Assembly: GCA_002763895.1 (NCBI GenBank)
Contig: NSLH01000003.1
Span: 62,001 to 126,000 of the forward strand
Length of the DNA stretch: 64,000 nucleotides
Direction of reading: 5' to 3'
DNA from: [Chlorobium] sp. 445
GTDB lineage: Bacteria > Bacteroidota > Chlorobiia > Chlorobiales > Thermochlorobacteraceae
The notes under the pieces: generated by a model
Databases searched by the model: none
Seen by the model: only the letters and a program-made list of their open reading frames with translations
Told to the model about the DNA's origin: nothing
Position numbers and translations under genes: made by a program
Shown: positions 7,592-53,227 of the stretch, in pieces
How positions within the stretch are numbered: position 1 is the stretch's first letter
How the letters are laid out: each line of letters starts with the position of its first letter

Positions 7592-7653
7592 AAGAAAATG
7601 AACGGCTTGAACACAAGCTGGCACTGAACATTTGAAGTAAAGGAGAAGTAAGT

Positions 7654-10073
7654 ATGAATGCACAAAAGCACATCACCCTCGTGCTTGGCATGGAGCGCTA
7701 CAACGCCGAGCTATTTGAGCACATCAAATCACAAATCCGCGCACGCTGTCCTCAATTACGCTTGCATGTGTTTTTCGATAACGACGTGCTCGAGCGTCCA
7801 AAAAAAGTTGAAGCGGCAATTAGTGTGAGTGACGTGGTCTTCACGGCACTTATCGTCTTAGACGATGCCGCAAATGCCATGATAGAGATGCTCAAAAACA
7901 CAATCCGAGTTTCATCTTTGCGTTCGAATCGCTGCCGCCACTGATGATGATGAATAAAGTGGGGAGCTATCACTTTTCAGGCGGTAAGGGTGAGATGCCA
8001 AAACCCGTCAAAGCGCTAGGCAAAATTTTAGGTGGCGGCAGAGAAGAAGATGCTTTCTATGGGTATGTGCAGATGCAGCGCCTTGCCAATCGAGTGATGC
8101 GCTTCCTGCCCGAACACTTCGGTGGCGAAAAAGTCCACGATGCGAGAATCTGGATGACAGTCAGCACTTACTGGTCGAACAGCGGCGAAGACAATGTGCT
8201 CAATATGCTGCTCTACATTGCCGAAAAACTCTTGCATTTACCTGTAAAGAGCGAGGCACCGAAAGAAATTGGGACAATGGGAGTTTATCACCCCGAATAC
8301 TACAATGCCACGAAAGAATTCTTCCCTGATCTCAAGCATTACTTGAAATGGGAAAAGAAAACAGGGCGCGACAGAGGCGATAAACCAAAAGTTGGATTGC
8401 TTTTACCACGTAAGCATGTGCTCTCAGGACAAAGTTATGCAGGTGAGATTATCACGGCGCTCGAGGCACAAGGGTTACGCGTGTATGCTTGTTATGCGAT
8501 GGGCATTGAACTGCACATTGCTGTGCGCACATTCATGAAAGAAGCAGGGATTGAATTGCTCATTAATCTGTTTGGCTTCCCCTTGGTGGGCGGTCCAGCA
8601 GGCTCTACCAAAACAGGCATTGCACATCCTGCCGCATCGGAAATTTTGTCGGGACTGAATACCCCTTACATTGTAACACAGCCGCTGTATGTGCAAACCA
8701 AAGAAAGTTGGCGCCAGCATGGCGTCAATCCGATTCAGGCAATGATTATCTATTCACTGCCTGAAATGGATGGCTCAATTTGTCCTGTGGTCCTAGGAGC
8801 ATTGGAAAACAATACGCTCAAACTCGATCAGTCACGTCTGGTGCGGCTAAGCAAACTGGTCAAGCGTTGGATTGCGCTAAAGCACAAGCACAATGCTGAA
8901 AAGAAGATTGCAGTGGTGCTCTACAACTACCCACCAAATCAAGGTAAGCTAGGCACGGCGGCACTGCTCAATGTGCCAAAGAGTTTAGTCAATTTTGTGC
9001 GCGAACTGCATCGGCAAGGCTACAACACCGGTGACTTTTTAGAGCGTTATGCTGCTCACCCTGATACGCTGACGCATGATTTAGCAAAATCTATTGAAGC
9101 CGATACAGTAACCGAAACGGCCACCATGCAAGACTATGCCAGATGGGTTGCACCGAATGAGCAAGAACGCATTGAAGCGCGCTGGGGTAAAGCCCCGGGC
9201 GACATTGCTGTGGCAGGCAAAGATCGATTCATTATCGGCGGCTTGCGCTTTGGCAACCTCTACATCGGCGCACAACCGCAACTTTTTATTCAAGGCGACC
9301 CAATGCGACTGCTCTTCGACAAAGAAAACACGCCACATCACCAATTCGTCATGTTCTACAAGTGGCTTGTCTATGGGCTCGGAGCAGATGCACTGGTGCA
9401 TTTCGGTATGCACGGCACTGCAGAATGGATGCCCGGCTTGCAACTTGGACTCACACAAGAGTGTTGGTCTGACATCTTACTGGGAGAACTGCCGCAGTTT
9501 TACATCTACCCGATGAATAATCCGTCAGAAGCTAATATTGCCAAACGCCGAGGCTATGCCACCATCATTTCACACGCTATCCCGCCGTATGCGCGTGCTG
9601 GACTGTACAAAGAGTTTCAAGCCCTGCGCGATTTGCTAGGCGACTTCGAAAACGGCAGAGATTTTCCCGAACTGCGCGATGCAATTGTCCAAAAAGCCGC
9701 TCTGCTAAATTTGAACGATGATGTCCCGCCAAACGATGATTTTGCAAAATATGCCAGCGATCTTGCAGCCTACCTCAAAGAAATGGAAAACCGCTTAATT
9801 TGCGGCGATTTGCACACGCTGGGTGAAAATCCTGATAAAGCCACGCAGGTTGAACTCATCACCGAAGCCTTGAAAAATCATAGCGACTTGAAGTTGTTGG
9901 ATTTTGCGGCAGAATGCTTAGGCACGGAACCCTATGCGATACTCAGTCAGCGTGCAAAAGCAGGGGATAAAGATGCACAACTCAAGAAGGAAAGACTTGA
10001 AGAGTTTTGCCGAAGTATTGTTAGACAATATGTGATTGAAGAAAAACCAATCACACACACTCTTGAAGTATAA
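7654..10073 (+). CDS. bchH: Magnesium chelatase large subunit (BchH-type), C-terminally truncated and with one frameshift
   Basis: BchH binds protoporphyrin IX and, with BchI and BchD, inserts Mg2+ as the first committed step to bacteriochlorophyll. The N-terminal DUF3479-like domain ('ITLVLGMERYNAELFEHI') and CobN/Mg-chelatase core are clear: 'GGPAGSTKTGIAHPAA', 'TPYIVTQPLYVQT', 'VVLYNYPPNQGK', 'ALVHFGMHGTAEWMPG', 'MNNPSEANIAKRRG'. One A is missing in the A5 run at 7894-7898; restoring it joins the frames into 806 aa. The family is normally about 1,200-1,300 aa. Here a TAA ends the protein after 'THTLEV', and no downstream frame continues it, so the conserved C-terminal third is absent. It could be a decayed or specialised paralogue (Chlorobiota usually have BchH, BchS and BchT) or half of a split subunit. 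No bchD or bchI is nearby. Confidence 0.88.
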
Positions 10074-10085
10074 TCGCTCATAAGT

Positions 10086-10250
10086 ATGCTAATCGGAGTT
10101 GTTTTCCTTTGGCTAATGGGCGTACTGACGGTGGCGGCACTGGGTATCACAGCCTATCAATATCTGCGATACAAAGTGCGAACGCACCAATACCTCTCGC
10201 TCAAAAAACTCTCTGAGCAAGCCTTGCGCGATTCCTTTCGCTTGAATTGA
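10086..10250 (+). CDS. Small single-pass membrane protein, 54 aa, function unknown
   Basis: ATG at 10086 starts 12 bases after the bchH stop. The product has one hydrophobic segment (residues 2-25, 'LIGVVFLWLMGVLTVAALGI') followed by a short basic tail with 'YLRYKVR' and 'LKKLSEQALRD'. The spacing suggests translation with bchH. I do not recognise a family. A coding origin is supported by its position and the clean TM-plus-basic-tail layout, which predicts a cytoplasmic C-terminus, but its small size limits confidence. Confidence 0.5.
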   Translation: MLIGVVFLWLMGVLTVAALGITAYQYLRYKVRTHQYLSLKKLSEQALRDSFRLN

Positions 10251-50308: not shown

Positions 50309-52121
50309 TTACTTAATAATGATCTCGCGCGGCAATTGTGCAAGCGGCTTAAGCGCAGCACTAAGTGCATTGCTTAACTTGTGCAAGAGACGCTGAAGTT
50401 CATCAGCAATATCACTCTGTCCAAAAATTTCCGAAAATAACTGCGCCTTTGCATTAGCTTGCAGGTAATGCCACAGCTGTGCCTGCACATTGTCTTCTTC
50501 TGCGTCATCTGCACCAAAAAGCACATCAAAAAACGAAATGCGCTGCGGATATTCAACCAACACGACACTTGCACTTGCATCCAGTTTCGCAAGGTCTTTA
50601 GCAACTTCAACAGCGCGATTAAAGCCGCCAAGTTCATCAACCAAGCCAATTTTTTGGGCACTCTCGCCAATCCAGACTCGACCTTGTGCAATAGAATCAA
50701 CATCTGAGACGGTCATCTTTCGACCTTCGGCAACACGCGCTAAAAAAACGCTGATACCCTTCATTGATTAAGGCATCGGCTTTTTGATAGGCTTCAGGAG
50801 AGAGCTTTTCAAACGCATTGAGTGCATCGGCAAACTTGCCGCGTACAAGCACTTGGCGTTTGAGTCCAATATCTTCCTGCAGCTTTTTAATGTTCGGCTT
50901 TATTGCAAAAATGCCGATAGAGCCTGTGATGGTCAGTGGGTGCGCAAGAATTTTGTTTGCATCGGCTGAAATCCAATACCCACCTGAAGCAGCGACGCCA
51001 GACATTGAAACCACAACCGGCTTTTCAGCTTTAACTTTCAGAATCGCTTGTCCCATTTTATCTGACGCAGTAACAGACCCGCCCGGACTATCCACGCGCA
51101 AAATCACGGCTTTGATCGTGTTATCTTTGCGAACACGCTCGAGCGCTTTTTCAATGACTTTATCGCCCACATTATCCTGTCCATCAGGCTGCGGTGAGCC
51201 TTTGCCATCGACAATAGTGCCTTGAACATAGACGACTGCAATTTTCTCGCCCTTTTGTTTTTCTGCTGCAGCTTCGAAGGCACGTTGTGAGACAAAGATG
51301 TCTTCATCGCGCGTTGCAGAAAACTTTGCTTTGAGTTGCTCTTTGAGATCTTTCATGTAGACAATGCTATCGGCGAGTTTGAATTCAATGCACTGCTTTT
51401 CGGAGAAAAATGCTACATCGTTGATGAGGCGACGCACGTCGCTCTCGGAGAGATTGCGCCCCTTACAAATTGCGTCGATGTAGGCTTTGTCAAAAGCATT
51501 GAGCAAGGCTTCATCTTGCTCTCGGTCAGCATCGCTTTGGCTATCGCTGATAAAAGGTTCAACGGCACTTTTGTACTTGCCGCGCCGGATAGCTTCAACT
51601 TCTACACCAATTTTTTCTAGCGCTGTCTTGAAGTAAAGACTCTCAAAGCTCAAGCCATCAATGAAATAGACGCTGTATGGCTCGAGATAAATTTTGCTGC
51701 AAGCTGACGCAAGGTAATAGTCTTTATCGCTGCCGCCGCTGAGATATGCCCAAACTTCTTTGCCCGACTGACGCACGGCGGTGATAGCATCACGCAATTC
51801 TGCGAGCTTTGAAAACGGTGCTGAAAGCGCAGAAATTTCCAGTACAATCAACTGAATGCGATTGTCATCTTTCGCACGGTTTAGTGTGCGCAGCGCACTT
51901 TGAAATGTAGAAATCGGTTTTTGTGAGCCAAAGGGAGGTACATCAACAAAAATGCGCTCTGGCAACGCCCCACCGATGGACATCATCAGCACGGCTGTTT
52001 TTGGAATCTCGGTCTTAGGTTGCAAGGCACGAATAAAAGTGAGCACGCCGAGAAGTCCAAGCAAGATTAAGACAATGAGGAGAATGCGACGAGAGCCACG
52101 CTTTGCTGTTTGTTCTGCCAT
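50309..52121 (-). CDS. sppA: Signal peptide peptidase, 67K type, interrupted by one frameshift
   Basis: Membrane serine protease that degrades cleaved signal peptides. Combined product 603 aa from ATG 52121. One N-terminal TM ('RILLIVLILLGLLGVLTFI'), then two tandem crotonase-like SppA domains; Lys in 'RRGKYKSAVEPF' and Ser in 'SMSGVAASGGYWIS' form the Ser/Lys dyad. One extra base in the A7 run at 50742-50748 breaks the frame after 'NEGYQRF'; removing it restores 'LARVAEGRKMTVSDVD'. The C-terminal part then reads cleanly to the stop. Confidence 0.92.
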
Positions 52122-52169: not shown

Positions 52170-53227
52170 CTACTTTGCAGATACTGAGGCACTGATTTGC
52201 ATGTCCGGCAAACTTGTTTCATAGAGTAAGCAGCTGACATAGTGTGTGGGATGGTTTGGCAATGCTTGCAACTGTGGCTCAGTGTGTTGGCATAGCGCTT
52301 GAGCTTTTGGGCATCTTGGGTGAAAGCGACAACCACTCGGCACGTTGGCTGGACTTGGAATATCGCCAACAAGCACAATGCGCTTGCGCTTGAGCTTAGG
52401 GTTTGGTATCGGCACAGCTGAAAGCAGAGCTTCAGTGTAAGGATGTTTGGGCATCTGATAGAGCGTATCGCAGTCGGCAAGTTCAACCAGTTTGCCCAGA
52501 TACATCACCGCCACACGGTCAGAGATGTGTTCTACAACAGAAAGGTCATGCGCAATGAAGAGATAAGTCAAGCCGAGTGCTTTCTGCAAATCTTGCAAGA
52601 GATTGATAATCTGCGACTGAATCGAGACATCGAGTGCGGAGACAGGTTCATCGCAGATGATGAATTTCGGCTCTACAGCTAAGGCACGCGCAATACCCAA
52701 GCGCTGACGCTGACCGCCAGAAAATTCATGCGGATATCGATTCAAATACTGCGGGCTAAGTCCGACTTGCTCCAAGAGTTGTGCTGCGCGTTTTTCAGCA
52801 GCTTGACCTTCTGCAAGCTGATGCACTTCTAAAACCTCGCGCAGCATTTGTCCTACGGTCAAGCGCGGGTTGAGTGAGCTGAAAGGATCTTGAAAGATGA
52901 TTTGCATGTCCTTGCGCAGGTGGCGCAATTCTTTGCGACTCAGGGCACGAATGTTTTTGCCCTCAAAGTAAATTTCGCCATCGGTCGCTCAATGAGCCGA
53001 AGCAAGCTGCGTCCGACCGTCGTTTTGCCGCAGCCTGACTCACCAACTAAGCCAAGCGTTTCGCCACGCCGAATCGAGAAGGAGACACCATCGACGGCTT
53101 TGAGATAGCCAACGGTTTTGGAGAAAATCCCACGACGAATAGGAAAGTAGGTCTTCAAATTTTTGACAACGAGCAAATCGGCTGTGTCTGGTGCCTGTGC
53201 CTTCGGTAAATGCGTCAATTCAGACAT
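52170..53227 (-). CDS. Oligopeptide/dipeptide ABC transporter ATP-binding protein (OppF-type), one frameshift
   Basis: Combined product 352 aa. Walker A 'GESGCGKTT', Q-loop '[12 protein letters not shown]', signature '[15 protein letters not shown]', Walker B '[11 protein letters not shown]' and the Opp C-terminal Fe-S-like motif 'GCRFHPRCP...LC' are all present. One base is missing at the GG at 52983-52984 (minus strand 'CC'): restoring it joins 'LIERP' to '[14 protein letters not shown]'. It energises uptake of peptides; partner permeases are not in the window. The egtD gene follows upstream on the same strand, 102 bases away. Confidence 0.9.

Follow-up and report, generated by a model that had tools for sequence, protein, structure and literature searches.

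The window, a stretch of 64,000 nucleotides from the draft genome of [Chlorobium] sp. 445 (G000), carries on its forward strand a gene, bchH-N (positions 7654–10073), whose product is most probably the N-terminal half of a magnesium-chelatase H subunit encoded in two pieces. The gene is spread over two overlapping ORFs, 7654–7944 (96 aa) and 7944–10073 (709 aa), which give a product of ~806 aa after repair of one indel. Relatives' proteins match bchH-N in frame 1 to about position 7896, with the match continuing in frame 3 from position 7893, and the corresponding one-nucleotide frameshift, from frame 1 to frame 3 as judged against three relatives, lies in the short A run CTCAAAAACAC (7893–7896, forward strand). 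The repaired length of 806 aa given in the preliminary description is confirmed, because the gene is unbroken in three other genomes at 806 (G001), 805 (G003, Candidatus Thermochlorobacteriaceae bacterium GBChlB) and 813 (G005) codons. Likewise, the stop codon at 10071–10073 is the natural end of the gene, since the alignment places the ends of the other genomes' N-halves at this position too. The ORFs, the unbroken genes of the relatives and the alignment end all bear out the earlier claim of a BchH-like gene that ends early at ~806 aa; the full-length homologues in Chlorobiales, up to three per genome, have frames of 1,254–1,377 aa and proteins of about 1,270–1,313 aa.

How is the frameshift to be read? 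Two further genes of the window are frame-broken relative to G001, at about 50739–50761 and 52985–52988, which makes indel errors in the G000 assembly likely. The break near 7896 is probably an assembly error of this kind or a very recent mutation. Programmed frameshifting was also considered and was rejected because the relatives have no frameshift there.

Directly 3′ of bchH-N, the ORF at 10086–10250 (forward strand) encodes the 54-aa single-helix membrane protein reported earlier downstream of the gene. Counterparts occupy the same place in G001, G002 (a separate assembly from the same genus as G000) and G003, such that four of the five genomes that have both halves carry the protein directly after bchH-N; in G005 the two are not close together. 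It ends in (D)..RLN (window 10086–10250; L140–L142; L143–L146), matches no Pfam family, and has weak relatives in genomes without the split pair, where they adjoin a histidine phosphatase. The 54-aa protein may be a partner of the bchH-N product.

Upstream lies the leader ACATTTGAAGTAAAGGAGAAGTAAGTATG with a Shine-Dalgarno site and the bchH-N start codon (7628–7656, forward strand). This leader, ACATTT...AAGGAG, precedes both halves in G000–G003 with small changes, and it may serve as a leader or in regulation. Further sites are found at G000:C14:15977–15992, G003:C40:11943 and C36:28715, and G000:C1:219032 and C2:128395, and the leader also stands ahead of an FrhB-type gene, DUF169 genes and a Rieske gene. 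Its enrichment over reversed-pattern controls is modest (11 versus 3 in G000; 4 versus 3 in G003), and neither bchI nor bchD was seen to have such a leader ahead of it; for these reasons a pigment regulon marked by the leader was kept only as a lead.

The complementary half and its distribution

A whole-genome search of G000 with PF02514 returns exactly two matches, bchH-N at model positions 2–658 and a 473-aa frame, bchH-C (G000:C14:14629–15915), at positions 676–1089, such that the two jointly cover the 1090-position model end to end. The C-terminal third that the preliminary description held to be lost is instead encoded here, in a genome where a second ORF with only this part was found and a complete bchH was not. 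bchH-C is complete at ~470 aa, has an AAGGAG and an ATG of its own, and lies on a different contig from bchH-N; it sits inside contig C14 with neighbours of its own, and is likewise interior in G002. Both halves have their own start codon, with a Shine-Dalgarno site that is clear in most genomes.

Neither half reaches the curated TIGR02025 cut-off of 829 bits, which was set for whole proteins: the 709-aa frame alone, which lacks the first 97 model positions, scores 684 bits (model 97–800) and bchH-C scores 647, the corresponding values for the halves of G003 being 738 and 659. BchH is still the best family for every half. A CobN identity was rejected because TIGR02257 gives only 263 and 321 bits for the same two proteins.

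Both halves occur in G000, G001, G002, G003 and G005, which represent three genera of one family, and this shared arrangement, together with the C-half ORF of G000, supports the earlier suggestion that bchH-N is half of a split subunit. Each of the five genomes with a complete N-half also has a C-half, and conversely every genome with a C-half (5/5) has both. A full-length BchH occurs in addition to the split pair in G001 and G005 and as the only copy in G004, G006 and G007, while in G008 the sole match is partial and lies at the end of a contig. No full-length H subunit was found in G000, G002 (99% complete) or G003 (100% complete), which leaves the split pair as the sole H subunit identified in these three genomes, although a full-length bchH could be missing from the G000 assembly, a draft in 81 contigs that is 96.6% complete. 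In a search of 98 genomes of the order with an N-half profile, the top matches (1034–1673 bits) came from the five split-pair genomes and G010, whereas full-length homologues scored at most 844 bits; identity to the nearest full-length Chlorobiales BchH is 42–45% for the N-halves and 53–58% for the C-halves. In G010, a member of another family (f3), the N-half-type bchH (L062, G010:C335) is cut by the contig end, and the fragment stops before the equivalent of ChlH residue Y651.

Could bchH-N be a truncated paralogue that has taken on a new role, such as porphyrin binding or regulation, independently of the C-half? The full-length BchH of G001 and G005 leaves room for the pair to act otherwise in those two genomes. 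However, the halves co-occur in 5/5 genomes and are the sole H subunit found in three, the N and C trees match, and the catalytic positions are all kept across both halves (see below), which makes this other suggestion of the preliminary description very improbable. Still less credible is an assembly artefact, that is, a full-length gene broken by a deletion or misassembly near 10,070. The draft state of G000, in 81 contigs, would allow for such an event, but the same break is found in five genomes, in G000 and G002 the C-half has its own start and is flanked by other genes within its contig, and the order downstream of bchH-N (N-half stop, small ORF, alpha/beta hydrolase) is the same in G002 as in the window. 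None of the relatives examined has a full-length gene at the bchH-N locus; thus neither the deletion or misassembly at about 10,070 nor the full-length gene in relatives that had been held against an early stop was found.

The flanks of both halves vary between genera, with the exception of the small ORF beside the N-half and of hemF (oxygen-dependent coproporphyrinogen oxidase), which adjoins bchH-C in G000 and G002 only (L049:8665–9390, L053). A conserved neighbourhood was for this reason rejected as a functional clue.

Break point, catalytic residues and selection

In alignment with the Chloroherpeton-type protein L065, the N-halves run to about residue 807, past a conserved helix, and the C-halves start at a helix near residue 830; absent between them is a linker of ~20 residues that is variable among full-length proteins. 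A phmmer alignment maps the break to about residues 860–888 of Synechocystis ChlH, and the nearby stretch 852–888 of that protein is described in a review as basic and possibly membrane-facing (PMC13297055). Solved laboratory fragments that fold alone begin slightly beyond the break (6YS9 and 5EWU, and 9FPC for CobN). AlphaFold2 models were made for each half alone from shallow alignments of 20–21 rows, with mean pLDDT of ~77, and show low-confidence active-site loops at residues 541–554, 583–587 and 617–648 of the N-half and 47–72 and 294–299 of the C-half. Such loops fit a packing of each half on the other, and the shallow alignments could also cause them. By Foldseek, the C model matches ChlH fragments at a TM of ~0.92 by target; the match of the N model to ChlH is weaker (TM 0.52 by query, E 3e-38).

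A single protein encoded as two unlinked halves is a typical feature of split-intein hosts, and on this ground a split intein that joins the halves after translation might be proposed. However, a split intein takes up well over 100 residues when both of its parts are counted, and the ~10 residues after the conserved N-half and ~20–30 before the conserved C-half leave no room for one, so that this route has a negligible probability.

In Synechocystis ChlH, H621, E660 and H1174 are essential, and E625, Y651 and Y653 lie in the channel (PMC13297055). The equivalents of H621, E625, Y651, Y653 and E660 are found in BchH-N and that of H1174 in BchH-C, and they are kept in every split pair, such that neither half alone has all six positions. 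This division of the catalytic residues implies that both halves would have to come together to work. Separately, one group of full-length Chlorobiales BchH paralogues, each adjoining another paralogue gene, has Arg in place of the essential His1174 of ChlH (L064:6386–10198, L070:5774–9619, L069:7065–10904, L073:346–4479, L076:1689–5630 and L078:5768–9832).

Nei-Gojobori dN/dS values, which are rough because dS is near saturation, are 0.06–0.10 for the N-halves, pairs with G000 included, 0.04–0.10 for the C-halves and 0.05–0.09 for full-length BchH; these values indicate strong purifying selection on both halves. They also bear on the proposal that bchH-N is a young, decaying pseudogene, inactivated by its frameshift in a genome where another chelatase makes Mg-protoporphyrin IX. 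The N-half of G002 is frameshifted too, at a different place from that of G000, which speaks for decay. Nevertheless, selection remains strong in pairs that include G000, the N-half ORFs are intact in G001, G003 and G005, no other H subunit was found in G000, G002 or G003, and the other frame-broken genes of the window point to indel errors in the assembly. A pseudogene is for these reasons improbable, with a small chance left to real decay in the genus of G000 and G002, in neither of which another H subunit was found.

Separate trees of the N and C proteins each give the split proteins as one clade and agree in its inner order, G005 branching in both outside G003 and the genus of the window. 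In a concatenated tree the split clade adjoins the order's full-length BchH-type groups, at an exact position that is unsure owing to long branches. In G003, bchH-N lies between the genes for a histidine phosphatase and for the small membrane protein, and in a genus that has only full-length BchH, relatives of these two genes are adjacent, with no bchH-N between them. This arrangement is in line with an ancient fission and later loss of either form, and a single such event, as read from trees and gene order, fits the observations best.

A proposed two-chain H subunit and its relation to known systems

The H subunit is the large protein at the start of bacteriochlorophyll synthesis, and the hosts of the split pair are phototrophs akin to the Chlorobi of hot springs. 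Its partners are present in G000 as a 408-aa BchI-type and a 617-aa BchD-type frame, and a PscA-type reaction-centre frame is found in G000 at C4 and in 8/9 other genomes. BchM, searched for as PF07109, was without a match in 10/10 genomes, including those with full-length BchH. G003 (GBChlB) has been described as an aerobic photosynthetic member of Chlorobi with fmo, chlorosome and bacteriochlorophyll genes (PMC4161750).

The two halves exist as separate genes, complement each other, are conserved, evolve under purifying selection and between them retain the catalytic residues. We hypothesize, with a probability of roughly 0.87, that bchH-N and bchH-C encode a naturally split magnesium-chelatase H subunit that assembles non-covalently and chelates together with BchI and BchD. 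Judged from sequence, the split pair would be expressed, would associate and would have chelatase activity. BchH-N and BchH-C would fold separately and then associate into one H subunit, with the catalytic chamber at their interface, where BchH-N would contribute the equivalents of H621, E625, Y651, Y653 and E660 and BchH-C that of H1174. The assembled subunit and the BchI/BchD AAA+ motor would then insert Mg2+ into protoporphyrin IX. A further proposal, that both halves and the 54-aa protein form an obligate membrane-associated chelatase complex in which control of the C-piece switches chelation in aerobic phototrophs, is speculative and on present indications doubtful.

Liu et al. 2012, which is said to be the first description of Ca. 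Thermochlorobacter, lay outside the scope of our literature search, and the search returned no description of a split bchH, chlH or cobN. Within the order Chlorobiales as searched here, and with a mention in Liu et al. 2012 possible, the two-chain form would be a new variant of a known enzyme, the magnesium-chelatase H subunit. Its interest lies in an H subunit that evolution has cut at one point, with both pieces kept across several genera and catalytic residues on either side of the cut. Natural halves that can be produced separately would make domain movement, porphyrin entry and the roles of each part testable. Moreover, a search for a single full-length bchH can overlook the chelatase in the genome of a phototroph.

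The closest known system is BchH/ChlH itself (TIGR02025, PF02514; 4ZHJ, 6YSG), in that the halves match complementary regions of this protein, the catalytic residues are kept and the BchI/BchD partners are in the genome. In place of the continuous chain of about 1,200–1,330 aa found in BchH/ChlH, however, two genes of ~806 and 470 aa were found; where known BchH/ChlH is one chain of ~1,270–1,330 aa, the H subunit is here divided between two unlinked genes. The full-length BchH proteins of Chlorobiales are the nearest relatives, but they are single chains and the split proteins form a separate clade. CobN (cobaltochelatase) and HmuS (heme dechelatase) have superfamily and fold in common with the halves, but their scores are far below those of the BchH models, and the equivalent of ChlH H1174 is not His in CobN-like rows. 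The laboratory C-terminal fragments of ChlH, namely the Thermosynechococcus T_926 truncate (6YS9) and that of Arabidopsis (5EWU), comprise nearly the same C-terminal unit and fold by themselves; those fragments were cut by design, whereas the present cut arose in nature, with a second gene providing the other half.
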